From Gemmatimonas phototrophica (GTDB lineage Bacteria; Gemmatimonadota; Gemmatimonadetes; Gemmatimonadales; Gemmatimonadaceae), in assembly GCA_945869195.1 (NCBI GenBank), contig CAMBNV010000006.1, positions 62,001 through 126,000 on the forward strand: 64,000 nt of DNA, given 5' to 3'. Under the pieces are notes generated by a model. The model made no database searches. It worked only from the letters and a program-made list of their open reading frames with translations, and was not told the origin of the DNA. The stretch's first letter is position 1, and each line of letters starts with the position of its first letter. A program made the position numbers and the translations under genes. Shown here piece after piece: positions 14,795 to 35,514 of this stretch.

Positions 14795-15352
14795 ATGAAA
14801 CGACTTTTCACGTACTTCCTTCGTGGTCTGGTCCTGACGGTCCCGCTCGTCGTCACGGTCACGGTCTGCTGGTTCGTGCTCACGCGCATCGACGGGTGGC
14901 TCGGGCTGTCGCTCCCTGGTGCGGGCCTCGCAATCACCATCGCCGGGATCACACTGGTTGGGTTTTTCGGCACCTCCTTCCTCTGGACACAGGCGGAGAG
15001 CTTCTTCGAGCGTCTCCTCGATCGCCTGCCGTTCCTCCGACTCCTCTACTCGTCGACGAAGGACCTACTCAATGCGTTCGTTGGGGAGAAGCGGCGCTTT
15101 GACACGCCCGTACTGGCCGCGCTCTCTGCCGACGGTGCGGTGCGCTCGTTCGGGTTCATCACGCAACCGTCGCTCCGCGCACTCGGTCTCCCGGGGGATG
15201 TGGCGGTCTACTTTCCACAGGCCTACAACTTCGCAGGCCAGCTCCTCGTGGTTCCGGCCACCCGTGTCACGCGACTCGAGGCGGAAAGTTCAGAGGTACT
15301 GGCGTTCATCTTGTCGGGTGGGGTCACCGACGTACCGGAGGCAAGACGATGA
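14795..15352 (+). CDS. DUF502 family membrane protein
   Basis: Inner-membrane protein of unknown function. The 185 residues begin [19 protein letters not shown], a typical DUF502 opening, with two hydrophobic helices (about 5-30 and 42-65). The soluble part carries the family motifs [18 protein letters not shown] and [19 protein letters not shown], the latter matching the conserved PTTPNPTSG-type loop of the family in position but not in sequence. Its stop overlaps the next start by four bases (ATGA), so it is translationally coupled to the amidohydrolase; no functional link is obvious. Confidence 0.85.
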
Positions 15353-16710
15353 GCACCATGACCAGACGGGCGCGACAGGTGAGTCCATTGGAGCGGCGAT
15401 GGATCCGCCTCTCGGCCGTGGGTGGCCTGCTCACCGCAGGACTCGTGGCGTGGGCACGACCCGTCGAGGCACAGGTGGCCAGAGTCGCCGTGCCGCTCGA
15501 GCAGACGACACTCCTGATCCCCGACCGCGTCTTCATCGGGACCGAGGATTCTGCACGCACGGGATGGGTCGTGCTCGTGCGTGGGGAGCGCATCGCGGCA
15601 GTGGGGCCGCGCGCAGAGGTGCGCGCGCCGGCTGACGCGCGTCTCGTCGTGCTGCGCGGCACCACGCTGATGCCTGGGCTGATTGAAGGGCACACGCATC
15701 TGTTTTTACATCCCTACGACGAGACGAGTTGGAACGATCAGGTCCTCAAGGAATCGCTCAGCCTGCGCACCGCACGCGCCGTGAATCACGCGCGCGCAAC
15801 GCTCGTGGCCGGATTCACAACGGCGCGTGATCTGGGTACCGAAGGAGCGGGATACGCCGACGAGGGACTCAGGCAGGCGATTGATCAGGGCATCATCCCG
15901 GGACCCCGGCTGCTGATTGCATCGAAGGCGATCGTCGCGACCGGCAGCTACGGTCCCAAGGGGTACGCGACAGAATGGGAGGTGCCGCAGGGCGCCGCCG
16001 AAGCCGACGGCGTAGATGAACTGATGCGTGCCGCGCGCGAGCAGATCGGCCACGGCGCCGACTGGGTGAAAGTCTACGCCGATTACCGTTGGGGTCCAAA
16101 CGGCGAAGCGCTCCCCACCTTCTCAGAGCAGGAACTGCGCGCGCTCGTCGAGGTCGCCGCGTCGAGCGGGCGCAAGGTGGTCGCGCATGCGGCGACCGAC
16201 GAGGGGATGCAGCGCGCCGTCCGGGCTGGCGTCGCGATGATCGAACATGGCGATGCGGGGAGCGCCGCGACCTGGCGGCTGATGGCGGAGCGCAACGTGG
16301 GGTACTGCGCTACGCTCGCGGCAGTCGAAGCCACGGCGCGCTACGCGGGTTGGCGGGAGGGCGCGGCACCGACTCCGCGGATGGTGCAGAAGCGGTCGGG
16401 CTTTGCCGCGGCGCTCGCCGCCGGCGTCCCCCTGTGCATGGGTGGCGATGCGGGAGTCTTCACTCACGGGGAGAATGCCTGGGAGATCGAGCTGATGGTG
16501 GCGGCGGGGATGTCGCCCGCGGCGGCACTGCGATCGGCCACGAGCGTGAATGCACGACTGTTCGGTCTAGACGGCCGACTCGGGACCGTGCGGGTGGGCC
16601 TGCTGGCAGACCTCGTCGCGATCAGCGGTGACCCAACGCGTGAGATCGCGTTGGTGCGCTCGGGGGTACGGTTCGTGATGCAGGGTGGCCGCGTGGTGCG
16701 CGAACCCTAA
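15349..16710 (+). CDS. Secreted amidohydrolase (imidazolonepropionase/prolidase-like)
   Basis: Metal-dependent hydrolase of the amidohydrolase superfamily; substrates in this branch include dipeptides with C-terminal proline and related amides. 453 residues. An N-terminal signal (about 1-42, ending RPVEAQ) directs it to the periplasm. The barrel has the GHTHLF motif (HxH metal ligands), a lysine in [10 protein letters not shown] that may be carbamylated, [11 protein letters not shown] and MIEHGDAG for the next two His ligands, and MGGDAG with the final Asp. It ends just before a strong terminator. A similar but distinct domain occurs fused in the gene at 25251. Confidence 0.9.
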
Positions 16711-20642: not shown

Positions 20643-22775
20643 CTATTGCAGCCAGTACCCGAACCAGTCGCGCAGGCGACCGAGCCGATCGACGAGGAGC
20701 CAGGGCTCACCGGTCCGACTCAGGTCATGCGTCGAGCGCGGATAGCGCACAAACTCCACCGGTGTGCCCTGTCGCTTGAGCGCCGCGAACCACTGCTCGG
20801 CGTCGGTCATCGGTGTGCGGTGGTCTTCTTCGCTCTGCAGGATGAAGGTCGGGGTCTTCACCGCACGCACGTTGCGGATCGGGGAGAGCGAGTCGTACAT
20901 CGCGGGGTTGTCCCACGGGCGACCGAAAAACTCGAACTCCGTGAGGCTCTGGACGTCCGTCGTCCCATACCACGACCACCAGTTGCTGATCATCCGGTCG
21001 GCCTCGGCCGCCCTGAATCGGTCGGTCTTGGTGGTGATCCACGCCGTCATCACCCCGCCGTACGACCCCCCAGCCAGTCCCATGCGCGTGGAATCGACAT
21101 CAGGGCGCGCCGCCGCGATGTCGGTCGCCTTCATGAGATCCTGATAATCCTCCGCGAACCAACGCCCACGCGTTGAATACGTGAAGTCGGCGCCGTAGCC
21201 GCTCGAGCCGCGGGGGTTGGTGTAGAGGACCATGAAGCCTGCCGCCGCTAGGTTCTGCGTCTCGTCGAACCACTGTTCGCCGTACTGACTGTGTGGGCCG
21301 CCGTGGATATAGAGCACGAGGGGGTACTTCTTCCCCACTTCGTACCCGAATGGCTTCATCATCCATCCTTCGATCTCGACGTCCCCAACCGAGCGGTAGG
21401 TGAATCGCTCGGCCTCAGACCAGGCGATCTCGGTGTTCAGACGATCATTGATGCCCGTGAGCTTGCGCTCCCCCCTCCCGTCGGCACCCGCGATGTAGAT
21501 CTCGGTTGGCTTCGCGACGCTCGTCGATACATACGCGACCTGGCGACCCGCCTGATCGAAGGTGAAGCCGCTCATCTTGCGCCGGCCACCGAGCGACTCG
21601 CGGAGCTTGCCGTCTCGCGGGTTGACGAGAAAGAGTCCGCTCGCGCCCCCGATGTCGGCCGAGACAGCGATCTCGCCCAGCGGTAGCCAGTCAAGGCTCG
21701 CCGGCTCGTAGCGCCACTCCGGCGCCATCGGCGTCAGCTCGCCAGTGGCTATTTCGAGCACGCCGACGGTTGCCTGCTTCACTCGGCCGGGACGGAGGAT
21801 GAGGGCGAGGCGACGACTGTCCGGTGACCAGGTAAGATCAGACTCGGCGCCGGGGAGGGTGGCGACTTTTCGTGGCGTGCCGCCGGCGACGGGGATGACG
21901 TAGACGTCGGACTCGTTCCGATCGACTTCGTCGCGGGCGGCATCATACGGGAGCAGGGCGAGTGAATCGGCTAGTGCCTGCACCATCGAATCGGCGCGCA
22001 GGGCGGCGTCGGCAACAAACGCGATCCACTTGCCGTCGGGCGAGACCACCGGGGCGCGGTGCGAATAGCCGGTGCTCGTGAGCTGGACACGCTTCGCGCC
22101 GGGCGTCTGTGTGAAGAGCTGCTGCGGACGGGCGACCGGCGCCTCGCGAGGTCCTGGCAGGAAGCCCTGACCGTTGGCCTTGTAGCGCGCTTCGACGATA
22201 TGGCGACCGTCGAAACGCGTCGGGTCGACCGGCTTGGTGATGGCACCGAACGGCGGGCGCGCCATCGGCGGCATGCGCGCATAGATGTCGGCGTCGCCCG
22301 CGGCCGCGGCGCCCGGGCCCGCCAGCGTCGTGTCGGGGGCAACTACCGCCGCGAAGACGGCGAACCGGCCGTCGCGCGGCCACGATCCGGTGGGATAGTC
22401 GGCCAGCTGCGCGGCCTCGCCTGAGGGGAGATCCATCCGGATCGACCAGGCCGGGCCAACTCCACCAGCGCGCGTCGACGCGAAGTGTAGATACTTGCCG
22501 TCGCGAGAGAAGGAGGGATTCGAACTCTCCGTAGCGGGCGCCGTATAGCGGACCGGATCGCCACCGGCGGTCGGGACGACCCAGACTTCCTGGTGCCGCC
22601 GGTTCTCACGCTCGTTGACCGTCGTAACGGTGAAGGCGACGAGTTTGCCGTCGGGGGACAGTGCCGGCTGCGAGAGCGTCGTGAGCCGGTGCCAATCGCT
22701 GGGTTTCATGGCGCGCTGCGCGGAGAGCGCAGCCGGCGCAAGCATCAGGACGAGTGTGAACATTCGACGAGGCAT
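20643..22775 (-). CDS. Secreted S9-family peptidase (acylaminoacyl/dipeptidyl peptidase-like)
   Basis: Exported serine peptidase of the prolyl-oligopeptidase family, cleaving short peptides in the periplasm or outside. The ATG at 22775 opens a signal peptide (MPRRMFTLVLMLAPAALSAQ) and gives 710 residues; an in-frame start 36 codons upstream lacks a signal. A WD40-like/TolB beta-propeller (about 30-430, repeated SPDGKW and SPDSRR blades) gates an alpha/beta hydrolase domain (about 450-710) with the nucleophile in GLAGGSYGGVMTAW, an Asp in LQSEEDHRTP and a catalytic His in RYPRSTHDLS. Confidence 0.92.
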   Translation of the reverse strand: MPRRMFTLVLMLAPAALSAQRAMKPSDWHRLTTLSQPALSPDGKLVAFTVTTVNERENRRHQEVWVVPTAGGDPVRYTAPATESSNPSFSRDGKYLHFASTRAGGVGPAWSIRMDLPSGEAAQLADYPTGSWPRDGRFAVFAAVVAPDTTLAGPGAAAAGDADIYARMPPMARPPFGAITKPVDPTRFDGRHIVEARYKANGQGFLPGPREAPVARPQQLFTQTPGAKRVQLTSTGYSHRAPVVSPDGKWIAFVADAALRADSMVQALADSLALLPYDAARDEVDRNESDVYVIPVAGGTPRKVATLPGAESDLTWSPDSRRLALILRPGRVKQATVGVLEIATGELTPMAPEWRYEPASLDWLPLGEIAVSADIGGASGLFLVNPRDGKLRESLGGRRKMSGFTFDQAGRQVAYVSTSVAKPTEIYIAGADGRGERKLTGINDRLNTEIAWSEAERFTYRSVGDVEIEGWMMKPFGYEVGKKYPLVLYIHGGPHSQYGEQWFDETQNLAAAGFMVLYTNPRGSSGYGADFTYSTRGRWFAEDYQDLMKATDIAAARPDVDSTRMGLAGGSYGGVMTAWITTKTDRFRAAEADRMISNWWSWYGTTDVQSLTEFEFFGRPWDNPAMYDSLSPIRNVRAVKTPTFILQSEEDHRTPMTDAEQWFAALKRQGTPVEFVRYPRSTHDLSRTGEPWLLVDRLGRLRDWFGYWLQ

Positions 22776-22842
22776 CTGGTACTGAAATCCTGGTTTGAAG
22801 GACGCCTGCGTGTGAGGGCGGGCGAGATCCGGCTCACGGATT

Positions 22843-24474
22843 TTACGGGGTGCGCAGCGATCGCGCTGGGAATGTCTCGCCAACGCGCGCCGCCGTCAGT
22901 AGGCCGAGCGCGGCAAAGGTGAGGGTGCCGTTGCAGCAACTCGCGGTCACATTGGTCGGCGCTCCCGCGATGAACAGATTTTCATGGTCGTGCGATCGAC
23001 CATCTCGATCGACGACGCTCGTGGCGGGATCATTTCCCATGCGGCAGCCGCCGCCGGGATGCTCTTGACCGATGTCGCCCGCTGCCGACGCGTTGGAGAT
23101 GATCTCGCCGTCGCCGGCGCGCGCCATCCGCTGGAAGAGCTCGCGAATCGTCTGCTCGGTCCACGCACGCAGGGCGATCGACTCCGGGGCGTCGCGAAAC
23201 TGCAGGCGCGGCATCGGGTCGCCCCAGGCGTTCTTCAGACTCGGGTCGAGGGTGAGTTCGCTCTCGCGTGCTGGGAGCACGTCGTAGTAGGCGCGTACCC
23301 TCGCGGTGCCCTTCACCGTGCGCGCACGCCAATCGTGGACGAGTGCGTCACCGAACAGCACCGCGCCCGAGTCGTCGCGGAGGCGAGGCTCCTGCCCGAA
23401 CGACGACTCCCACACCCGCAGATCGTGCCGGATGTACTTACTCAGTGCCCCGGGCCGCATGAACTGCTTGGTGACGAGCGAATGTTGCGCGTTCACGCCG
23501 GGGAGGAGTTTCATCGGCAGACGAATCTGCGCACCGACGTTGCGATGGCCGCACAGGTACTTCCCGACGAGCCCGGACCGATTCGCGATACCATTCGGAT
23601 ACGAGGCCCCGCCCGAGAGTAGCAACAGGTGTGGCGTCCAGGTGAAGCCGGCCGCGAGGACGAAGCTCTTGGCCCGGATCGTGACCTCCCGGGCCGGATC
23701 TTTTGTCGCGTTTGCCGTCGCGTGCGTGATGCGCCCACTGCGCGGGTCCGCATGCAACCGGCGCACGAGCGTGTCGGTCACCAGCCGGATGCGCCCCGTC
23801 CGCACGAGCGCGTCGAACGAAAAGTCCGGCGAGTACTTGGCCCCAGTCGGGCAGATGGGATAACAGGTGTCACAGCGCTGACAGACGCCGCGTCCCTGAT
23901 ATGGCACCGAGTTCTTCGCGCTCGGCTGGCTCCACATTGCGATACCGGCCTTCCCGGTCCACTCCCGGAGTCGTTCGAGGTTCTGACTCAATGGAAGCGC
24001 CGGCATCGGGAACGGCTTGGCTCGCGGGTCCATCTCCGGCGGGCCCTGCGCACCGGCGATCCCCATCCGCTCCTCCGCCTCCTGATAGAACGGATCGAGG
24101 TCGTCGTAACTAATCGGCCAATCGTCGCCGACCCCGTAGAGCGTCCGCAATTTAAAATCCTCGGGCGAGTACCGCGGCGTCACACCGCCCCAATGCAGCG
24201 CGAGACCGCCGACGTTCATCGACGGCGAAAATCCATACGCCGTGCCGAGCGCGTTCTGGTCGTCGAGATGGTCATTGGGCCATGGCGTCTCTCCGTAGTC
24301 CTTCCAGCGCGCCCGGCGCAGCGCGCGCTCGCGAAGCGGCGTCGAGTGGCCGCCGGCCTCGACCACGAGGATCGTCGCATGACGCTCCGCCGCGAGCTTC
24401 TCCGCCATGAGCGCCGCCGTGATGCCGGAGCCGACAATACAAATGTCGGCTTCGAGGACCCGCGGGGCGGTCAC
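22843..24474 (-). CDS. GMC-family FAD oxidoreductase with a ferredoxin-like Cys motif
   Basis: Flavoprotein of the glucose-methanol-choline family, related to the large subunits of gluconate/FAD-glucose dehydrogenases. The GTG at 24474 overlaps the stop of the partner gene (GTGA) and gives 543 residues. The FAD site is ICIVGSGITAALMAEKL (about 11-27). Near residues 198-209 lies CQRCDTCYPICP, a C-x2-C-x2-C-x3-CP spacing as in ferredoxins, which suggests an Fe-S cluster. The C-terminal HPGGGCRMG and CCNGTLTFAAL segments are those of the family. It has no signal peptide; export on the partner's Tat signal is likely. The substrate is unknown; sugars or other alcohols are the family norm. Confidence 0.88.
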   Translation of the reverse strand: MTAPRVLEADICIVGSGITAALMAEKLAAERHATILVVEAGGHSTPLRERALRRARWKDYGETPWPNDHLDDQNALGTAYGFSPSMNVGGLALHWGGVTPRYSPEDFKLRTLYGVGDDWPISYDDLDPFYQEAEERMGIAGAQGPPEMDPRAKPFPMPALPLSQNLERLREWTGKAGIAMWSQPSAKNSVPYQGRGVCQRCDTCYPICPTGAKYSPDFSFDALVRTGRIRLVTDTLVRRLHADPRSGRITHATANATKDPAREVTIRAKSFVLAAGFTWTPHLLLLSGGASYPNGIANRSGLVGKYLCGHRNVGAQIRLPMKLLPGVNAQHSLVTKQFMRPGALSKYIRHDLRVWESSFGQEPRLRDDSGAVLFGDALVHDWRARTVKGTARVRAYYDVLPARESELTLDPSLKNAWGDPMPRLQFRDAPESIALRAWTEQTIRELFQRMARAGDGEIISNASAAGDIGQEHPGGGCRMGNDPATSVVDRDGRSHDHENLFIAGAPTNVTASCCNGTLTFAALGLLTAARVGETFPARSLRTP

Positions 24475-25124
24475 TTCGCCCCTGCGGCGGCGAGCGGAAG
24501 CGGCGCCCGCGACGTCTCTGACAGCAGGCGGCACTTCCCGCTCATGATGCGCGCTTCGTACGCGAGGTCAGTCGCCTCGCTCGACGCCGCCCAATGCGCG
24601 AGGAGCGCGACGGCGACATGCGGGGCCGCCAACGGGTTCGCCGGCAACCGTGTGCCGCTCACTCGGGCAAGCTGCACCCCCGCGACCTCGCGCCGGAGCG
24701 CCACGCTGAGGCGCGCGAAGCCGCGCCGATGTTTGCGGCGCGAGAGCAGGTCGAGCCCCACGAGCTGCGCATTCCAGCCCGGTGCCGGATCGCTCGGCGT
24801 GTAAGTGATTTCTGCGTCGCCGTAGCCATGCATCTCCTCGGCGACCGGCGTGTACAGAGCGAGCCAGCTGGTAAAGGCGGTGATCCCCCGCATCCGGCCG
24901 GCGTCGCCGAGTAACTCGGGCAGGATCGCCCCGCCGAGCGCCTGAAGGAGCACGGGGTCGAGGGACCGCAGTGCGGGCGGTGGTGCGACACCGCGCGGAC
25001 TCGACGGGACTGGCGGCGGCGCGCCACGAGCGCCCTGTGCCAATGTGGTAGAGGCGTCGATTCCCGACGCAGCGGCGGCCGCAATCGCGGCACGCTTAAT
25101 GAAGTCTCGGCGGTCAGTGGTCAC
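24471..25124 (-). CDS. Gluconate 2-dehydrogenase subunit 3-like protein (Tat signal)
   Basis: Small subunit that accompanies GMC dehydrogenases, needed for their folding and export. The GTG at 25124 gives 217 residues starting with a twin-arginine signal (RRDFIKRAAIAAAAASG). The mature domain matches Gluconate_2-dh3 in layout, with LDPVLLQALGGAILPELLG and SGTRLPANPLAAPHVAVALLA. It precedes and overlaps the flavoprotein gene by four bases. The cytochrome c subunit usual in such complexes is not encoded nearby. Assignment rests on size, context and the Tat motif, so it is a little less certain than its partner. Confidence 0.78.
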   Translation of the reverse strand: MTTDRRDFIKRAAIAAAAASGIDASTTLAQGARGAPPPVPSSPRGVAPPPALRSLDPVLLQALGGAILPELLGDAGRMRGITAFTSWLALYTPVAEEMHGYGDAEITYTPSDPAPGWNAQLVGLDLLSRRKHRRGFARLSVALRREVAGVQLARVSGTRLPANPLAAPHVAVALLAHWAASSEATDLAYEARIMSGKCRLLSETSRAPLPLAAAGAK

Positions 25125-25250
25125 GGCGAGGATGGTAACTCGCGTCAGGTCCGCGCGCGAGCGCCAGACTGAACCGTGCACGATGCGAGCGTTCTGGCTT
25201 CGGCGCTGCGCAGGACGCAGATTCCGCCGCAACCGCACACAGAGGCCGCA

Positions 25251-28200
25251 ATGCAGACTCCGGGCTCCCCTACGCACCGCCACTCCTTTTCTCACGCGCT
25301 CCGTCATGCGCTGCTGCTCGCCGTTCCGGTCCTGCTCGCCGCTGGCGCGCCACCAGCGAACGGATTTTCCACGGACGTTCGACCCGAGGCCGCCCCCCTC
25401 ACGATTCGCGCGGGCGTCCTCCTCGACGGTCGCGGCGGCGTGCTGCGCGACGTCGTACTAACCATCGAGGGGACCCGCATCACGCGCATTGTGCCGTGGC
25501 AGGCGGGGTCCGCGGTGACCTGGGATCTCTCGAGCCGCACGGTCCTACCGGGACTGATCGACACGCACGTGCATATCGACGGCCACTTCGGTGCCGACGG
25601 GCGAGCGAACACGCGTAGCGAGACGCCGCCACAGCGACTCCGTGCCGCGATGGAGAACGCGCAGCGGACGCTGCGGGCTGGCTTTACCACGGTGCAAAGC
25701 CTCGGCGCGGCAATCGACCTCGAGCTCCGCAGTGCGATCGTCGATGGGCGCGCTGAGGGACCGCGCATCCTCACCGCGGTCGCGCAGTTCAGTGACACGT
25801 CGCGCACACCAGAGCAGATCCGAGAGTGGGCACGCGCCACCGTGGCCCGAGGCGCCGACGTCATCAAGATCTTCGCATCGAAGAGCATTCGTGAGGGCGG
25901 CGGCCAGACGCTGAGCGACGCGCAGATCGCCGCCGCCTGCGATGAGGCACGCCGGCTCGGAGTGCGGAGTTGGGTCCACGCGCACGCCGCCTCGGCCGTG
26001 CGGGCGGCGGCAACAGCCGGCTGCTCCGGCGTCACCCATGGCACGCAGGTGACCGCGACCGAACTGGCGTTAATGGCTAGGCGGGGGACGTACTTCGAAC
26101 CGAACATCGGGCTCGTGATCCAGAACTACCTCGAGAACCGCGCGCGATTCGTTGGCACCGGAAACTTCACCGACGAGGGCTTCCAGTTCATGGAGGACGT
26201 CCTACCAAAGAACCTCACCGTCTTTCGCGAAGCGATGCGGACCCCGGGCCTCAAGGTCGTGATGGGCACCGACGCGGTGGCGGGCGCGCACGGCCAGAAT
26301 GCCCGCGAGATCGTCTACCGCGTGAGCGCCGCAGGCCAGACCAACGCCGAGGCGATTCGCGCCGCCACCTCGCTCGCGGCAGAGGCGCTCGGACTCGCTG
26401 ACAGCCTCGGTACCCTGAGTGCGGGCCGGGTCGCGGATCTCATCGCCGTCGAGGGCGACCCACTCACCGACATCACCGCGCTGCAACGCATCGCCTTCGT
26501 CATGAAAGGAGGTGCCGCCGTACTCGCGCCGGAGCGAATCGATCGCGCTCGTGGCGGTGCGCTGGGCTGGGCTTCGTACGGCAACGACGCTGGTGGACTC
26601 AAGTACTCACAACTCAGCGACATCGACCGCACGAACGTGCACGGGTTGCGCGTCGCATTCAGCTGGGACGCGAACGAACGACCGATCGCCGCGAGCGCGG
26701 GTCAGCTGTCGGCGCGTCCTGGACTCTTCCAGGCCACACCGCTCGCCATCGGCGACACGTTGTATTTCCCCACGCCCTACAATCGCGTCATCGCCCTCAA
26801 CGCACGCAACGGGCGCGAGCTCTGGTCGTACGACCCACAGCCGTGGAAAGGCTACGGCCAGCCGAGCAATGGGACGGGCTTCGTGCATCGCGGCGTGGCG
26901 ACGTGGACCGATGGCCGCAGCCGACGCGTGTTCATCAACTCCCGCTGGCGGCTGATCGCGCTCGACGCGACAACGGGGAAGCCGATCGCATCGTTCGGCA
27001 CCGACGGGGAGATCGACCTCACGGCGGGCCTCTCCCGCACGGTGCGTCGCGAGCACTACACCAACACGTCACCGCCCGTCATCTGGGGCGATCTCGTAAT
27101 CGTCGGCAACGGGGTCGGTGATCGCCTGGTGTATCGCGGCGATCCACCGGGCGACGTGCAGGCGTTCGACGTGCGTACCGGGCTCCGCGTCTGGCGGTTC
27201 CGCACCGTGCCGCAGCCCGGTGAGGTCGGCAATGAGACCTGGGAGAACGAGGCATGGCGCTACAAGGGCCACACGAATGTCTGGGCGCCCTTTACCGTCG
27301 ACAGCGCGCGCGGTCTCGTCTTCCTTCCCGTCGGGACGCCGAGTGACGACTGGTACGGCGGTGAACGGAAGGGAGCCAACCTCTTCGGGGAGTCCCTCGT
27401 CGCACTCGATGCGCGCACCGGCAAGCGGGTCTGGCACTCCCAGATTACGCATCACGGCCTCTGGGACTATGATCTGCCCGCGCCGCCGAACCTGATGACC
27501 GTGATGCACGAAGGGCGCCCCACCGACATCGTCGTCGTGCCGACCAAGCAAGGGATGCTCTTCGCGTTCGAACGCGCGACGGGCGCACCGCTCTGGCCGA
27601 TCACCGAGCGGGCCGTCCCGGCCAGTGATGTGCCCGGCGAGGTCGCGTGGCCGACCCAGCCCTTCCCCACCAAGCCGGCGCCATTCACCAAACAGGGACT
27701 CGGCGTCGACGACCTGATGGACTTCACGCCGGCACTGCGCCAGGCGGCGCTCGACGAACTCGCGCCGTATCGTCTTGGGCCGATCTATACGCCTCCGTCA
27801 CTGCAAGGGACGGTGGCGATGCCCGGCGTGATCGGCGGCGCTGGGTGGGGTGGCGCGGCCGTCGATCCGAGCACGGGGTGGCTTTTCGTGAAGGGATCGA
27901 ATGCGCCAGCACTATTTCGCTTAGTGAAGCGCGATCAGCCCAGCGACACGGTCGACACGCCGTACATGGTCGACCTGCCGCGTTCGTCGCTTGGCGTTTC
28001 CCAGCGGGAGACTGCTGAAGGCGCCGATCGGGCGAGCACGCGATTGCCGGTGAACAAGCCGCCCTACGGCACGATGACCGCCGTCGACATGAACACCGGC
28101 GAGACGATGTGGCAGGTCCCACTGGGTGACACCCCCGACGTGCGCCAACATCCGTCGCTGCGCGGCGTGGTACTGCCCGCACGCCTCGGCGTTTCCGGCT

Positions 28201-28433
28201 CACCCGGCGGACTCGTGACGGGCGGCGGACTCGTCTTCGTGTCAGGCGGTGGCACCGTGCTGCATGCGATCGATACGCGGACCGGCGTCACCCTCTGGGA
28301 ACTCGACCTCGGCCAGCAGGCGTACGCGAACCCGATGACGTACCGCACGAGTGACGGCCGTCAGTTCGTGGCGATTGCGACCGGCGGCGGCACGACGTCG
28401 CGGTTGGTCGTGCTCAGCCTCGATCGCGACTGA
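25251..28433 (+). CDS. Secreted fusion: amidohydrolase plus PQQ-dependent dehydrogenase
   Basis: One 1060-residue polypeptide with two enzymes. After a signal region (about 1-40) residues about 50-425 form an amidohydrolase: LPGLIDTHVHIDGHF (HxH), a Lys in VIKIFASKS, VHAHAAS and GVTHGT His ligands, and MGTDAVAG with the Asp. From about residue 440 the frame continues into a quinoprotein beta-propeller of the membrane glucose dehydrogenase type: WASYGNDAGGLKYSQL, THHGLWDYDLPAPPNL, QPFPTKPAPFT and GGAGWGGAAVDP. No haem motif is present. The ATG at 25251 has GAGG 8 bases upstream; an in-frame start at 25176 would place the signal internally. It is divergent from the FAD dehydrogenase genes, which suggests shared use. 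Confidence 0.88.
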   Translation: MQTPGSPTHRHSFSHALRHALLLAVPVLLAAGAPPANGFSTDVRPEAAPLTIRAGVLLDGRGGVLRDVVLTIEGTRITRIVPWQAGSAVTWDLSSRTVLPGLIDTHVHIDGHFGADGRANTRSETPPQRLRAAMENAQRTLRAGFTTVQSLGAAIDLELRSAIVDGRAEGPRILTAVAQFSDTSRTPEQIREWARATVARGADVIKIFASKSIREGGGQTLSDAQIAAACDEARRLGVRSWVHAHAASAVRAAATAGCSGVTHGTQVTATELALMARRGTYFEPNIGLVIQNYLENRARFVGTGNFTDEGFQFMEDVLPKNLTVFREAMRTPGLKVVMGTDAVAGAHGQNAREIVYRVSAAGQTNAEAIRAATSLAAEALGLADSLGTLSAGRVADLIAVEGDPLTDITALQRIAFVMKGGAAVLAPERIDRARGGALGWASYGNDAGGLKYSQLSDIDRTNVHGLRVAFSWDANERPIAASAGQLSARPGLFQATPLAIGDTLYFPTPYNRVIALNARNGRELWSYDPQPWKGYGQPSNGTGFVHRGVATWTDGRSRRVFINSRWRLIALDATTGKPIASFGTDGEIDLTAGLSRTVRREHYTNTSPPVIWGDLVIVGNGVGDRLVYRGDPPGDVQAFDVRTGLRVWRFRTVPQPGEVGNETWENEAWRYKGHTNVWAPFTVDSARGLVFLPVGTPSDDWYGGERKGANLFGESLVALDARTGKRVWHSQITHHGLWDYDLPAPPNLMTVMHEGRPTDIVVVPTKQGMLFAFERATGAPLWPITERAVPASDVPGEVAWPTQPFPTKPAPFTKQGLGVDDLMDFTPALRQAALDELAPYRLGPIYTPPSLQGTVAMPGVIGGAGWGGAAVDPSTGWLFVKGSNAPALFRLVKRDQPSDTVDTPYMVDLPRSSLGVSQRETAEGADRASTRLPVNKPPYGTMTAVDMNTGETMWQVPLGDTPDVRQHPSLRGVVLPARLGVSGSPGGLVTGGGLVFVSGGGTVLHAIDTRTGVTLWELDLGQQAYANPMTYRTSDGRQFVAIATGGGTTSRLVVLSLDRD

Positions 28434-30118: not shown

Positions 30119-30814
30119 CTAGCTCCCGAGCGTCCGCCTGGGCGCCGGCTTGTTACTCGGCAGATCGCTCGGCACATCGCTCCGCAGATCGCTCGGCACA
30201 ACCACTGGCCGCGGCAGAATCAGCATGTTCTGAGCCGTCACGTACGCCCATTCCTGCCGTCCCAACCGCGCGGCGGGATGCAGGCGCGTCGTATCGGGGA
30301 GTCCATCCTCGGCGATAAGTCCATCGTCCACATGCAGCACGAGCACTTCACCGATCACCCAGGTGCTCTGCTGCGGACCGCTCCCGTGCGGTACGATCTG
30401 AAAGACCTTGCACTCAAGCTGCGCCAGGCTCTCGGCCACCCGCGGCGGCTTCACCACCGACGAGGGCATCCGGGTGAACCCCGCGGCGTCGAACTCGTCG
30501 ACGTCGGCCGGATACGGCGCCGAGGCCTGATTCACCCGCTCGATCATGGAGCGCGAGACGACATTGATGACAAACTCACCTGTCTCGAGCACATTGCGCA
30601 GCGTGTCCTTCGGATTGCCGTCTCGATCGGAGACCGGACAGAAGGCGATCGACTGTGGACTCTGTCCACCCATCGCGAAGAACGAGAACGGCGCAAGGTT
30701 CCCGACGCCGAGTGCGCTCAGAGTGCTCACGAGCGCAATCGGCCGCGGCACGATGAGCGGGGTGAGCCAGGCGTGGCGCTGCGACGGTCCGAGATCGGCG
30801 AGGGTGAGCTGCAT
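30119..30814 (-). CDS. Flavin reductase-like FMN-binding protein
   Basis: Protein of the flavin reductase-like domain family (split beta-barrel binding FMN), 231 residues. Visible motifs: RPIALVSTLSALGVGNLAPFSFF near the N-terminus and SIAFCPVSDRDGNPKDTLRNV, then TGEFVINVVS, all typical. It is the third gene after hppD and hmgA, its start overlapping the hmgA stop by one base (TAATG). Its role in aromatic degradation is unproved; it could supply reduced flavin or have its own reaction. The C-terminal tail is encoded by three 12-base repeats (PSDLRSDVPSDLP) and is probably disordered. Confidence 0.82.
   Translation of the reverse strand: MQLTLADLGPSQRHAWLTPLIVPRPIALVSTLSALGVGNLAPFSFFAMGGQSPQSIAFCPVSDRDGNPKDTLRNVLETGEFVINVVSRSMIERVNQASAPYPADVDEFDAAGFTRMPSSVVKPPRVAESLAQLECKVFQIVPHGSGPQQSTWVIGEVLVLHVDDGLIAEDGLPDTTRLHPAARLGRQEWAYVTAQNMLILPRPVVVPSDLRSDVPSDLPSNKPAPRRTLGS
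30161..30196. repeat. Three 12-base tandem repeats in the flavin reductase tail
   Basis: Units start at 30161, 30173 and 30185 and share the core ATCGCTC; in frame they encode repeated Ser-Asp-Leu/Val-Pro/Arg. Confidence 0.7.
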
Positions 30815-31995
30815 TACGACGTCGGCGGCGAGAACCCCTGCCCTGGCTCAATCCACGAAAACATGTACCTCGGGTCCTCGTACGGCAGGATTGCCTTCGC
30901 CACTTTGAGCGGACGGAACGAGTCCATCATCACTGCGAGCTCGTTGGTGTGCGTCATGCCGATGCTCCCCTCGTAGCGACCCGGATGCGGGCCGTGTGGG
31001 ATGCCATCAGGATGATGTGTGACCGATCCGTACTCGATCCCCTTGCGACTCATAAACTCGCTCGACGCGTAAAACAGCACCTCGTCGGAGTCGACGTTGC
31101 TGTGGTTGTACGGCGCCGGGATGGCTTCCGGGTGGAAGTCGTACGGTCGCGGGCAGAATGAGCAGATCACGAAACCGTCGCCCTGGAAGGTCTGATGCAC
31201 TGGCGGCGGCTGATGTACGCGGCCGACGATCGGCTCGAAGTCGTGGATGTTGAACGCCCAAGGATAGAACTGGCCGTCCCACCCGATCACGTCGAGCGGA
31301 TGGTGGTCGAGTACGATCTCGTTCAGACCGTTGTACTGTTTGATCACGATGGGGAAGTCGCCCTTCTCGTCGTGCGTGCGGAGTTCGCGCGGGACGCGGA
31401 TGTCGCGCTCGCTGTAGGGCGCACCTTCGATGTGTTGCCCCACGTTGTTGAGGTAGCGCGAGGGCGGACGCACATGGCCGCGGCTCTCCATCACGAGCAG
31501 CTTGGCCGGCTGCGTGAACCGGTATCGGTGGAGGAGGTGGCGATGGATGACGAGATAATCCCCAGGGCGGATCGGCAGGTCGCCGTACTGCGTCTCGAGC
31601 GTCCCCTCGCCCTCCGCGACGTACACGACCTCGTCACCCTGCGCATTGCGATAGAAATGCTCGTCCTGCTTGTCCGGCGCGACATAGAGCATCGCGATGT
31701 CGTTGTTGAAGAGCATCGGGACGCGGTCGAGCGTCGGACTGCCGCCGCGCGCGATCGGCCCCGTCTTGAAGTGCCGGTGCCGCAGCGCCCGATCGGTGTC
31801 CTCGACATACGGCGTCTCGGCCAGACGACGCACCGACTTCACGGTTGTCGGCGGATACAGGTGGTAGAGGAGCGCCGATGGCCCGGTGAATCCCTCGACC
31901 CCGACGAGCTGCTCATGATAGAGTCCGCCATCCGGCTTACGAAAGACGATATGCCGCTTGCGGGGGATCTGGCCAAGCGTGTGATAAAACGGCAT
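30814..31995 (-). CDS. hmgA: Homogentisate 1,2-dioxygenase
   Basis: Iron(II) dioxygenase opening the ring of homogentisate to maleylacetoacetate in tyrosine and phenylalanine degradation. 393 residues, somewhat shorter than the roughly 430 of proteobacterial HmgA but similar to other bacterial forms. Seen: YHTLGQIPRKRHIVFRKP at the N-terminus, VYVAEGEGTLETQYGDLPI and PGDYLVIHRHLLHRY of the cupin part, and the metal-site region PAPYNHSNVDSDEVLFYAS with HPDGIPHGPHPG. It overlaps hppD and the flavin reductase by one base each (TAATG), so the three are translated in series. Confidence 0.93.
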   Translation of the reverse strand: MPFYHTLGQIPRKRHIVFRKPDGGLYHEQLVGVEGFTGPSALLYHLYPPTTVKSVRRLAETPYVEDTDRALRHRHFKTGPIARGGSPTLDRVPMLFNNDIAMLYVAPDKQDEHFYRNAQGDEVVYVAEGEGTLETQYGDLPIRPGDYLVIHRHLLHRYRFTQPAKLLVMESRGHVRPPSRYLNNVGQHIEGAPYSERDIRVPRELRTHDEKGDFPIVIKQYNGLNEIVLDHHPLDVIGWDGQFYPWAFNIHDFEPIVGRVHQPPPVHQTFQGDGFVICSFCPRPYDFHPEAIPAPYNHSNVDSDEVLFYASSEFMSRKGIEYGSVTHHPDGIPHGPHPGRYEGSIGMTHTNELAVMMDSFRPLKVAKAILPYEDPRYMFSWIEPGQGFSPPTS

Positions 31996-33119
31996 TACAG
32001 GTTTCCTCGGAGTGCCTGTTCGCGCTCGATGCTCTCGAAGAGCGCTTTGAAGTTGCCCGCACCGAAACTCTTGGCACCCTTGCGCTGGATGATCTCGAAG
32101 AAGAGCGTGGGGCGATCCTCGATCGGCTTGGTGAATATCTGCAGTAAATAGCCTTCGTCGTCGCGGTCCACCAGGATCCCGAGCTCGGCCAGCGGCGCGA
32201 GCTCCTCGTCGATCGTGCCCACGCGATCAAGGACGGTCTCGTAGTACGTCTGCGGGATCGTCAGAAACTCGATGCCGCGTGCCTTGAGCTCGCGCACCGT
32301 CGCGACGATGTCGTCGGTCGCCATGGCAATGTGTTGCACGCCCGGGCCACCGTAGAAGTCGAGGTACTCCTCGATCTGCGACCTCTTCTTGCCGGCCGCT
32401 GGCTCGTTGATCGGAAACTTGATGCGACCGTTCCCGTTGGTCATGACCTTGGACATGAGCGCCGAGTACTCGGTGCTGATGGTTTTGTCGTCGAACGAGA
32501 GCAGGTTGTAGAATCCGAGCACCTTGGAATAGAAGTCGACCCAGTGGTTCATCTTGCCGAGCTCGACGTTGCCGACACAGTGGTCGACGTACCTGAGTCC
32601 CACCGCGGCGGGCATGAACGGCGACGTCAGCTTGCGAAACCCGGGCATGAAGAGGCCGCGGTAGTTCTTTCGCTCGACAATCGAGTGGATGGTGTCGCCA
32701 TACGTACGAATGCCGGCGATGATGAGCGCGCCGTCCTCGTCCGTCATGACGGTGGGTTCCTGCACCGAAATCGCGCCGCGCTCAACCGCTTTGGCGTGCG
32801 CATCGCGAGCGTCGTCCACCCAGAAGGCCATGTCGCGCACGCCGTCACCGTGCTTGGCGATGTGCGCAGCGAGTTCGCCATCGGGTCCCATGGGGGTCGT
32901 CAGCAGCAGGCGAATCTTGCCCTGCACGAGCAGGTAGCTCGCCCGGTCACGGACACCAGTCTCGGGGCCGCGATACGCCGTCAACTGGAATCCGAAGGCG
33001 GCGCGGTAGAAGTGTGCGGACTGTTTCGCATTTCCGACCCAGAACTCGATGTAGTCCGTCCCGTTGATCGGGAAGGTGTCGTGTGCGGTTTCCTTGACGG
33101 GGGCGGTGCTGGTGGCCAT
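31995..33119 (-). CDS. hppD: 4-Hydroxyphenylpyruvate dioxygenase
   Basis: Non-haem iron enzyme making homogentisate from 4-hydroxyphenylpyruvate, the entry step of tyrosine breakdown. The ATG at 33119 has GGAG 7 bases upstream and gives 374 residues, normal for HPPD; a longer frame upstream has no ribosome site. Two vicinal-oxygen-chelate halves are seen: FPINGTDYIEFWVGNAKQS at the start and LRYVDHCVGNVELGKM in the middle (first His ligand). GPGVQHIAMATDDI gives the second His and RPTLFFEIIQRKGAKSFGAGNFKALFE the Glu ligand and C-terminal gate. It follows a leader of about 220 bases with a possible regulatory mini-ORF. Confidence 0.96.
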   Translation of the reverse strand: MATSTAPVKETAHDTFPINGTDYIEFWVGNAKQSAHFYRAAFGFQLTAYRGPETGVRDRASYLLVQGKIRLLLTTPMGPDGELAAHIAKHGDGVRDMAFWVDDARDAHAKAVERGAISVQEPTVMTDEDGALIIAGIRTYGDTIHSIVERKNYRGLFMPGFRKLTSPFMPAAVGLRYVDHCVGNVELGKMNHWVDFYSKVLGFYNLLSFDDKTISTEYSALMSKVMTNGNGRIKFPINEPAAGKKRSQIEEYLDFYGGPGVQHIAMATDDIVATVRELKARGIEFLTIPQTYYETVLDRVGTIDEELAPLAELGILVDRDDEGYLLQIFTKPIEDRPTLFFEIIQRKGAKSFGAGNFKALFESIEREQALRGNL

Positions 33120-33429
33120 GTGCGTCTCCAGAGTGGAGGGGTAGGGCGAGCGATGGGAGGCGTGAGGCGCGGCGATGTGTGAAGGACGAGGGGTGGAAGA
33201 AGCTATCGAATCGCCCCTGCACGCTCCTAGGCTCCGCGCGCGCCCGTCCGGGCGCTCGTCCACCAGCGGCCCCAGCTGTCGTTCGACGCCCAATCCTCGA
33301 TCCGCATTCTCTGCTCCGTCTGGTCCGGGTAGCCAACGTCGCTCAAATATACTGCTGCGCTCTGGCACCCCGTCCAACGGCGCCCGACTGCGGTCTCCGT
33401 TCGGCCTTCAGCGTTCAGTCTCTGTCTCA
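33120..33429 (-). promoter_or_regulatory. Long leader region of hppD
   Basis: A 310-base gap with no ordinary gene. Read on the minus strand it contains a -10-like TATATT at 33346-33351, a GGAG site, a 26-codon Trp-rich mini-ORF (33307 to 33227), a compact GC hairpin at 33240-33255 that overlaps the end of the mini-ORF, and then about 107 bases before the hppD start. This is the layout of a translation-controlled attenuator, but the idea is inference. Confidence 0.5.
33227..33307 (-). CDS. Candidate Trp-rich leader peptide upstream of hppD
   Basis: Mini-ORF of 26 codons with ATG at 33307 and TAG at 33227. GGAG lies 8 bases upstream. Tryptophan is at residues 6, 12, 15 and 16, the last two adjacent, just before a GC-rich hairpin. 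Four Trp in 26 residues is far above the usual proportion. It may be a regulatory leader peptide or a chance ORF; there is no Tyr codon, which would be expected if tyrosine were the signal. Confidence 0.35.
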   Translation of the reverse strand: MRIEDWASNDSWGRWWTSARTGARGA

Positions 33430-35514
33430 TCAGATCGCCAACGCCGGCAGTGCTCGGTAGAGCTCCAGCGCTGCCGGGTTCGCGAGCGCATCCGTGTTCT
33501 TCACGACCCGTCCATGGAGCACGTCGCGGACCGCAATCTCGGAAATCTTCCCGCTGATGGTGCGCGGGATGTCGGCCACCGCTTCGATCACACGCGGCAC
33601 ATGATGAGCACTTGTCGCCGCGCGAATCACCTGCCTGATGCGCGCCCGGAGGGCATCGTCAAGGACGGCGTCGCCGCGCAAGCGCACGAAGAGCACAATC
33701 CGGACATCCTTCTCCGCACCGCTCCCCACATCCTGACCGACAACCACGCTTTCGAGCACCTCGGGCAGCTGCTCCACCTGCCGGTAGATCTCGGCGGTGC
33801 CGATGCGGACACCGCCCGGATTCAACGTCGTGTCACTCCGACCGTGGATCACGAGACCGTCGTGTGCCGTGAGCTCGGCCCAGTCGCCGTGACGCCAGAC
33901 GCCGGGGAATGTATCGAAGTAGGCCGCGCGATACTTGGCTCGGTCCTCGTCCTGCCAGAACGCGACGGGCATCGAGGGAAAGGGCTGCGTGCAGACGAGC
34001 TCCCCTGCCACGCCACGCAGCGGCTTGCCGGCGTCGTCCCACACCTCGACCGCCATTCCGAGTCCGCGACATTGGAGCTCGCCGCGCCAGACCGGGAGCA
34101 TCGGATTCCCGAGCGCAAAGCAGGAGATCAGATCGGTCCCGCCGGAGATGCTCGCGAGATGCACATTGGCGTGCACGTCCCGATAGACGTAGTCGTAGCT
34201 GTGCTCCGCAAGCGGACTGCCGGTGGAGAGGATGGAACGGAGCGCCGTGAGCTCATGCGTACGGACCGGCGCGAGCTGCAGCTTCTCCGACATCGCGAGG
34301 AACTTTGCACTCGTACCGAAGACCGCGACACCCTCGGCGACCGCGAGATCCCAGAGGATCGCGGGATTCGCGTCAGGGAGCGGCGCGCCGTCGTAGAGCA
34401 CGATCGTCGCACCGCAGGCGAGCGCGCTCACGAGCCAGTTCCACATCATCCACCCGCAGGTCGTGAAATAGAAGATCCGTTGTCCGGAACTGAGGTCGGT
34501 GTGGAGGCGATGTTCCTTGAGATGTTGGAGCAGGGTGCCACCCGCCCCGTGCACCATGCACTTGGGCAGTCCCGTCGTCCCCGAACTGTACATCACGTAG
34601 AGCGGATGATCGAACGGGAGCCGCTCGAACTGTTCCGGGCTTGAGTCCCCGCGGGCAATGAAGTCGTCCCACCTCACGGAGTGCGGAAGCACGCGCGCCG
34701 TCGCCGCGACGGCATCGTCGTCGCCAAGGAACGGGACGATAATCACCTGTTCGATGCTCGGGATCGCCTGCGCGATCTCGCGCGTACGCTCGAGACACTC
34801 AATGCGTTTGCCTGCGTAGCAATACCCGTCGGCGGCGATTAACACCTTGGGCGCGATCTGCCCGAACCGGTCGAGGACACCGCGGGCACCGAAATCCGGA
34901 GAACACGAAGACCAGACCGCGCCAACACTCGCCGCCGCGAGCGCCCCGACGACCGCCTCGGGAATGTTGGGCAGAAACCCGACCACTCGATCGCCTGGCA
35001 CCACGCCGACCGCACGGAGCGCCCCGGCGGTGCGGCGCACCTGATCGGCGAGCGCAGCGAACGAGATCTCGCGACGGCGCCCGCGCTCGTCGTGCGCGAT
35101 GATCGCCGGCGCGCAGCTGCGGTCCCGCAGCAGGTTCTCGGCAAAGTTCAGACGCGCCCGCGGGAACCAACGCGGTCCTGTGCCATCGAGCGTGGACCGA
35201 CCGTCGGGCGGGCGCATGACCGCTCCACCCTGGAGCACGTCTTCCTTGGAAAATTCACGCCGGCGGACGGGACCGCTCCCGGATCGATCGCTGGGCGTCA
35301 CTCCATCCGCGATCACTCCACCAAACGCCCAGATCGCACTCCAAAATCGCTCTCGCTCGCGCACGGACCAGGCGTGCCACTCGCCGTATGGTGCCTCGGC
35401 GGCAGGCGCCGTCGCGTCGGTCGCCGCGACGTGCGCGAAGAAGCGCGCCAACTCGGTCGCGCGGACGCGAGCTGGGTCGGGACTCCAGAGCGGGGACGAG
35501 GCGGCGAACGTCAT
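33430..35514 (-). CDS. Acetoacetyl-CoA synthetase
   Basis: ATP-dependent ligase making acetoacetyl-CoA from acetoacetate and CoA. The 694 residues fit the AACS branch of the acyl-adenylate family. Motifs: WFPRARLNFAENLLR typical of AACS, SCSPDFGARGVLDRFGQI, the P-loop YVMYSSGTTGLPKCMVHG (A3), STGSPLAEHSYDYVYRDVH, and GRSDTTLNPGGVRIGTAEIYRQVE with the C-terminal Lys in ISGKISE. It lies directly upstream of hppD, and acetoacetate is an end product of tyrosine breakdown, so the two may serve one pathway. A -10-like TATTAA lies 9 bases before the ATG with no ribosome site. Confidence 0.93.
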   Translation of the reverse strand: MTFAASSPLWSPDPARVRATELARFFAHVAATDATAPAAEAPYGEWHAWSVRERERFWSAIWAFGGVIADGVTPSDRSGSGPVRRREFSKEDVLQGGAVMRPPDGRSTLDGTGPRWFPRARLNFAENLLRDRSCAPAIIAHDERGRRREISFAALADQVRRTAGALRAVGVVPGDRVVGFLPNIPEAVVGALAAASVGAVWSSCSPDFGARGVLDRFGQIAPKVLIAADGYCYAGKRIECLERTREIAQAIPSIEQVIIVPFLGDDDAVAATARVLPHSVRWDDFIARGDSSPEQFERLPFDHPLYVMYSSGTTGLPKCMVHGAGGTLLQHLKEHRLHTDLSSGQRIFYFTTCGWMMWNWLVSALACGATIVLYDGAPLPDANPAILWDLAVAEGVAVFGTSAKFLAMSEKLQLAPVRTHELTALRSILSTGSPLAEHSYDYVYRDVHANVHLASISGGTDLISCFALGNPMLPVWRGELQCRGLGMAVEVWDDAGKPLRGVAGELVCTQPFPSMPVAFWQDEDRAKYRAAYFDTFPGVWRHGDWAELTAHDGLVIHGRSDTTLNPGGVRIGTAEIYRQVEQLPEVLESVVVGQDVGSGAEKDVRIVLFVRLRGDAVLDDALRARIRQVIRAATSAHHVPRVIEAVADIPRTISGKISEIAVRDVLHGRVVKNTDALANPAALELYRALPALAI

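Follow-up and report, generated by a model that had tools for sequence, protein, structure and literature searches.

The window, that is, the whole stretch of 64,000 nucleotides that was analysed, carries at positions 25251-28433 of the plus strand a single stop-free frame of 1060 residues in which an amidohydrolase is followed by a PQQ-type dehydrogenase. An uninterrupted frame joining these two families had been claimed in an earlier note on this DNA, and both the translation and the recovery of the two Pfam domains confirm it. The frame is already open from a GTG at 25176, and an AGAGG is found about 10 bases 5' of the ATG at 25251. The layout is as follows.

25251..28433 (+): fused gene, 1060 residues, with a signal-like N-terminus, amidohydrolase, linker and PQQ-type dehydrogenase (frame, Pfam, five other genomes)
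25251..25385 (+): export-signal-like N-terminus, residues 1-45, a basic and then hydrophobic run, ALLLAVPVLLAAGA (pLDDT <50)
25386..26531 (+): amidohydrolase domain, residues 46-427 (Pfam; AlphaFold2 pLDDT ~83-98; VIA-align to 3mtw)
26532..26594 (+): flexible linker, residues 428-448 (pLDDT <50; alignment)
26595..28424 (+): PQQ-type dehydrogenase propeller, residues 449-1058 (Pfam PF01011; VIA-align)

The Pfam match to Amidohydro_1 (PF01979) spans residues 97-423 (E 8.7e-39, 134.2 bits against a cut-off of 25), and the match to PQQ (PF01011) spans residues 440-1040 and the complete model (positions 1-595 of 595, E 4.8e-193, 643.5 bits against a cut-off of 26.7). The motifs WDYDLP and GGAGWGG, also claimed beforehand, lie at residues 738-743 and 862-868, and the junction, previously placed near 26530, corresponds to the linker at about 26532-26594. 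The AlphaFold2 model, obtained from a 30-row alignment, shows well-defined residues 46-427, a disordered segment 428-448 and a mostly well-defined segment 449-1058, with a mean pLDDT of 83 and a pTM of 0.61, a value expected for two domains joined flexibly. The linker is variable across the fusions, with an 11-residue insertion in the one from genome G010. Residues 1-45 also vary in the alignment and are modelled with low confidence; the features of this N-terminal sequence suggest a putative export of the protein. In the structure comparison (VIA-align), the amidohydrolase half superimposes on the Cc2672 carboxypeptidase (PDB code: 3mtw) with a Z of 52.5 over 371 residues at 1.8 A, and residues 434-1059 on PQQ alcohol dehydrogenases with a Z of ~33. 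The solved structures listed cover nearly the full length of each half, further fold families being possible.

A run of three genes diverges from the fused gene.

24471..25124 (-): gluconate 2-dehydrogenase subunit 3 homologue with a Tat-like DRRDFIKR start, divergent (homology to L031:6375-7025)
22843..24534 (-): FAD GMC dehydrogenase, divergent (Pfam; PDB match 6a2u, E 1.4e-69)
20643..22883 (-): S9 (prolyl oligopeptidase family) peptidase, next in the divergent run (Pfam)

The product of 24471..25124 has no Pfam match itself and is 40-44% identical to that of L031:6375-7025, which matches Gluconate_2-dh3; it is likely the small partner of the GMC enzyme, whose nearest solved relatives are bacterial FAD glucose and fructose dehydrogenases. 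This pair adjoins five of the six fusions and is not found near the one in G314, and the S9 peptidase occupies the same place in G014, G010 and G001. Also, positions 30119-35514 hold flavin reductase, homogentisate dioxygenase-like, hydroxyphenylpyruvate dioxygenase-like and AMP-binding genes, a run for aromatic amino acid breakdown that is partly kept beside the fusion in genomes of the same genus. A second, distant amidohydrolase gene (15349-16710, 31% identical to the fused half) is kept in G014 and G001.

Predicted active sites and kinship of the two halves

The following residues are considered, the first five entries belonging to the amidohydrolase half, with conservation counted over 31 relatives, and the rest to the PQQ half, with conservation counted over 37 subfamily members.

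25566..25574 (+): H106-x-H108 metal ligands, invariant (31/31)
25866..25868 (+): K206, lysine ligand, carboxylated in the superfamily (31/31)
25977..25979 (+): H243, metal ligand (31/31)
26037..26039 (+): H263, metal ligand (31/31)
26271..26273 (+): D341, metal/catalytic aspartate (31/31)
26886..26891 (+): H546-R547, equivalents of Gcd H262/R266 (H546 34/37, R547 37/37)
27120..27122 (+): D624, metal ligand, equivalent of Gcd D354 (36/37)
27282..27284 (+): W678, PQQ-stacking, equivalent of Gcd W404 (37/37)
27465..27467 (+): D739, catalytic base in WDYDLP, equivalent of Gcd D466 (37/37)
27546..27548 (+): K766, PQQ-binding, equivalent of Gcd K493 (37/37)

The score, the HxH/Lys/His/His/Asp ligands and the fold place the N-terminal half in the amidohydrolase superfamily (PF01979), and the retention of six ligands in all 31 relatives bears out the description of this half as a complete amidohydrolase. 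The score against the Xaa-Pro dipeptidase equivalog (NF051886) is 231 bits, below the cut-off of 500. Xaa-Arg/Xaa-Pro dipeptidases and ochratoxin amidohydrolases (PDB codes: 3mtw, 2qs8 and, for ADH3, 8ihq) share the fold (Z 49-52) and all six metal ligands with the fusion. However, the identity with this group is only about 33-36%, and a C-terminal quinoprotein is present solely in the fusion.

For the C-terminal half, the site roles of D739, K766, W678, D624, H546 and R547 are presumably those of the corresponding E. coli Gcd residues. Invariant columns number 64 of 624 in the subfamily alignment, and the half combines the full PF01011 propeller with the catalytic Asp, the PQQ Lys and Trp and the metal Asp, a set shared with E. 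coli Gcd (TIGR03074, PF01011). PQQ binding and oxidation by this half would be consistent with such conservation. Unlike Gcd, the fusion has no membrane domain, is joined to a hydrolase, and belongs to a subfamily with the changes N355 to R, N607 to K and H775 to G; since these three residues contact PQQ or the metal in the E. coli enzyme, binding of cofactor or metal differs in detail from Gcd. In addition, S698 stands at the position of Gcd T424. TIGR03074, the membrane glucose/quinate/shikimate dehydrogenase model, is the best match, although the fusion fails its score (435 bits against 832.65) and is matched from model position 156, the amidohydrolase taking the place of the N-terminal membrane domain. 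The match to group A of the acido-empty-quinoproteins (TIGR04528) is also below its cut-off (209 bits against 650), and the cofactor-site residues are kept. The quinohaemoprotein alcohol dehydrogenases (PDB codes: 1kv9 and 1yiq) likewise combine the same PQQ propeller fold (Z ~33) with a partner domain. In that case, however, the partner is a C-terminal cytochrome c carrying CXXCH, whereas the PQQ half of the fusion contains neither CXXCH nor any cysteine, the only two cysteines of the protein being in the hydrolase half. A quinoprotein of the same genome (G000:C8, L040:7182-9395, ~785 residues) has lost the equivalents of D354, H262 and T424; judged by these losses, it resembles the 'empty quinoprotein' type and illustrates ligand decay.

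Spread and origin of the fusion

The search for the same domain order in other genomes recovered the stop-free fusion in G014 (88% identity), G233 (86%), G010 (77%), G001 (74%) and G314 (72%), which gives six carriers including the genome of the window (72-100% identity). No further full-length fusion was found among the 288 genomes of the order searched, and a wider contig scan used two amidohydrolase peptides as query, so the count is at least six and others may exist elsewhere. The carriers are a small group of uncultured Gemmatimonadota. It could be argued that two genes were merged by an error of assembly or frame, given that relatives (L031, L107) have both genes adjacent and in the same order, but this is ruled out by its presence in six genomes, assembled independently, that are 12-28% divergent. 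The assembly error at about 26530 that the earlier note had considered is thereby excluded, the junction being intact in the other five. Purifying selection is strong on both halves, with dN/dS values of 0.067-0.093 in the closest fusion pairs (values from other pairs are only rough, dS being near or above 1). Together with the retained ligands, this is consistent with the proposal that both halves would be active.

Separate amidohydrolase and PQQ genes stand in tandem in about 14 genomes from Gemmatimonadota and one Acidobacteriota. For example, G021 (L031) carries on one strand separate genes for the small subunit, the GMC enzyme, the amidohydrolase and the PQQ dehydrogenase. The tandem is also seen in G426, G079, G362, G073, G179, G119, G427, G241, G439, G214, partly in G154, in the MAG record of L116 and in the Bryobacterales contig PLRS01000163.1 (Acidobacteriota). 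The order is amidohydrolase and then PQQ dehydrogenase, often with the FAD sugar-dehydrogenase pair alongside; GMC genes adjoining amidohydrolases without a PQQ gene also recur in both phyla.

The fusions form one group in the trees of both halves. The topology departs from the genus labels, G233 falling inside the group and G314 next to G001; gene transfer or the binning of metagenome contigs may be the cause. In the hydrolase tree, where the row L118_diverg, an out-of-frame translation, is disregarded as a long-branch artefact, the fused hydrolase clusters with those that carry an FG-GAP/UnbV propeller (98-100% support), and the tandem hydrolases are scattered over at least four other positions. 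Constraining fusion and tandem hydrolases together, in a group that was named after a first tree had been seen, is rejected by the AU test (p 9e-62 and 2e-49). The fused hydrolase is therefore of another lineage than the tandem ones, and it is discarded that the fusion arose when a sampled tandem pair simply lost its intervening stop. This leaves a repeated joining of the two families or a swapping of hydrolase partners, and both scenarios point to a working link.

The propeller-bearing relatives (L036:7579-10224 and L074-L081) are amidohydrolases that share about 58-65% identity with the fused half and have a C-terminal FG-GAP/ASPIC-UnbV propeller, a partner confirmed in 8 of 9 loci, and represent a second hydrolase-propeller fusion of the same family. 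In another case (L039:5563-8859, G037), an M20 peptidase lies ahead of a related amidohydrolase in one frame of 1098 residues.

Supply of PQQ

PQQ synthesis genes were sought elsewhere in the genome, as the earlier note proposed, and were not found: a profile search gives no pqqC in any of the six carriers, and none of them has pqqE either, two in-phylum controls being positive for the latter. Because the first control genomes for the pqqC model were all silent, pSymB was added as a control and matched with 428 bits; pqqC is found in 44 of 395 Gemmatimonadota genomes. Lacking both genes, the carriers probably do not make PQQ.

According to PMC12124388, PqqU-mediated import of PQQ is widespread in Gemmatimonadetes, and its signature consists of Y99 (or F/W), R304 and R365. 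Full-length PqqU homologues are encoded in 6/6 carriers (E 1e-68 to 1e-78), with F at the Y99 position, R304, R365 and R536 kept and K or R at 274, and the next-best aligned TonB receptors do not have this signature. A homologue with the signature is also present in three of the tandem-gene genomes, and none was detected in the pqqC-positive genome G033. The signature (aromatic residue at 99, R304, R365) and the absence of pqqC and pqqE thus coincide in all six carriers, which makes the fusion hosts look like PQQ scavengers. Loss of PQQ ligands together with the absence of both synthesis and uptake had been named as evidence against the earlier claim; what is found is a PqqU-type importer and ligands that are kept. 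The carriers therefore resemble the scavenging system of PMC12124388, in which a quinoprotein and a PqqU-type importer occur without pqqC/pqqE, although the consulted passages of that paper do not describe this fusion. In this way, the fusion ties Gemmatimonadota quinoproteins to cofactor scavenging. Moreover, since the hosts encode an importer and quinoproteins with complete ligands but no synthesis genes, these enzymes would be mistaken for inactive in assays to which no PQQ is added.

In G021 (G021:C8:182659-186758), a relative of the PQQ dehydrogenase directly adjoins a TonB-dependent receptor with weak similarity to PqqU, possibly a dedicated importer of cofactor or substrate.

Proposed sequential action and alternative explanations

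With a probability of about 0.5, the fused gene encodes a secreted, probably periplasmic, bifunctional amidohydrolase-quinoprotein that acts sequentially on one substrate and uses imported PQQ. The N-terminal half would be an amide hydrolase with a binuclear metal site, from the Xaa-Pro/Xaa-Arg dipeptidase-ochratoxinase subgroup, and the C-terminal half a soluble quinoprotein of the glucose-dehydrogenase type that has neither haem nor cysteine. The cell would not synthesize PQQ but import it through the TonB-dependent receptor of the PqqU type, and the enzyme would bind it in an extracytoplasmic location. The flexibly linked halves would then act one after the other on what we infer to be a shared substrate, hydrolysing an amide or lactone and oxidizing a hydroxyl or aldose carbon, and the electrons would presumably be handed to a separate acceptor. 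A Tat-exported FAD sugar-type dehydrogenase (GMC enzyme plus small subunit) would commonly complete the module.

There is a lesser, though still appreciable, chance that both enzymes are active but merely tethered, for joint export or equal dose, with their reactions on different molecules. The flexible linker of the AlphaFold2 model would suit such an arrangement, as would the fusion of the same amidohydrolase lineage to FG-GAP/UnbV propellers and of a relative to an M20 peptidase. Also, most standalone PQQ relatives have no neighbouring amidohydrolase, so that coupling is not obligatory. Nonetheless, the pairing recurs in tandem with several amidohydrolase lineages and in two phyla, which argues for a functional coupling of the two activities as read from gene order, and the coupling of hydrolysis and oxidation suggested at the outset gains support from these recurrent tandem operons. 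It is quite unlikely that the propeller is an empty or structural quinoprotein through which the amidohydrolase binds or oligomerises, a role that the FG-GAP/UnbV propeller may have in the sister proteins. The missing pqqC and pqqE, the different propeller at the same end of the nearest amidohydrolases, the changed Gcd contact residues and the existence of related 'acido-empty-quinoprotein' models could be explained in this way, but the core residues for PQQ, metal and catalysis hardly vary, in contrast to those of the empty-like paralogue in this genome, the carriers encode a PQQ importer, and dN/dS is as low in the PQQ half as in the hydrolase half. Thus, ligand conservation and the importer disfavour an empty quinoprotein.

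As a variation on the sequential scheme, the order of the reactions could also be reversed, the quinoprotein converting a sugar-like compound into a lactone, or opening the way to an amide, that the amidohydrolase then hydrolyses. We regard this as possible but doubtful: it agrees with a PQQ half of the glucose-dehydrogenase type (TIGR03074 being the best match) and with a conserved neighbour whose nearest relatives are FAD-dependent glucose/fructose dehydrogenases, whereas the nearest hydrolase structures (3mtw, 2qs8 and ADH3) are peptidase- or amidase-like and no close hydrolase structure is named a sugar lactonase. Such an order would follow the logic of polyvinyl alcohol breakdown, where a PQQ dehydrogenase acts first and an oxidised-PVA hydrolase second. 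In both systems a periplasmic quinoprotein and a hydrolase would share one substrate, but in polyvinyl alcohol degradation they are separate proteins and the hydrolase belongs to a different family. As for the sequential amidohydrolase-quinoprotein, the kinship of the adjacent FAD enzyme to bacterial glucose/fructose dehydrogenases renders a sugar-like or lactone route as plausible as one in which an amide is cleaved first.

The fusion combines two known enzyme families in a new way but does not represent new chemistry, and nothing relevant to the fusion or the operon was found among the open-licence papers searched. More tentatively, and at somewhat less than even odds, it would represent a new extracytoplasmic amidase-quinoprotein architecture marking an undescribed oxidative-hydrolytic pathway with imported PQQ, widespread in uncultured Gemmatimonadota and present in Acidobacteriota, in which the amidohydrolase, the PQQ dehydrogenase and the FAD sugar-type dehydrogenase would form the set of enzymes. 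The fusion and the repeated pairing would name two reactions of one pathway and so offer a direct handle on its substrate.

Finally, other gene contexts are seen among the relatives. In genus g20, standalone PQQ relatives (L030:7860-8851 and L101:5730-6718) lie behind MsrB and MsrA genes, which are annotated in L030 and matched in L101 by genes of equal size. In genus g15, a Rieske VanA-like oxygenase adjoins the GMC-PQQ pair (L112:9905-11044 and L034:7065-8315).
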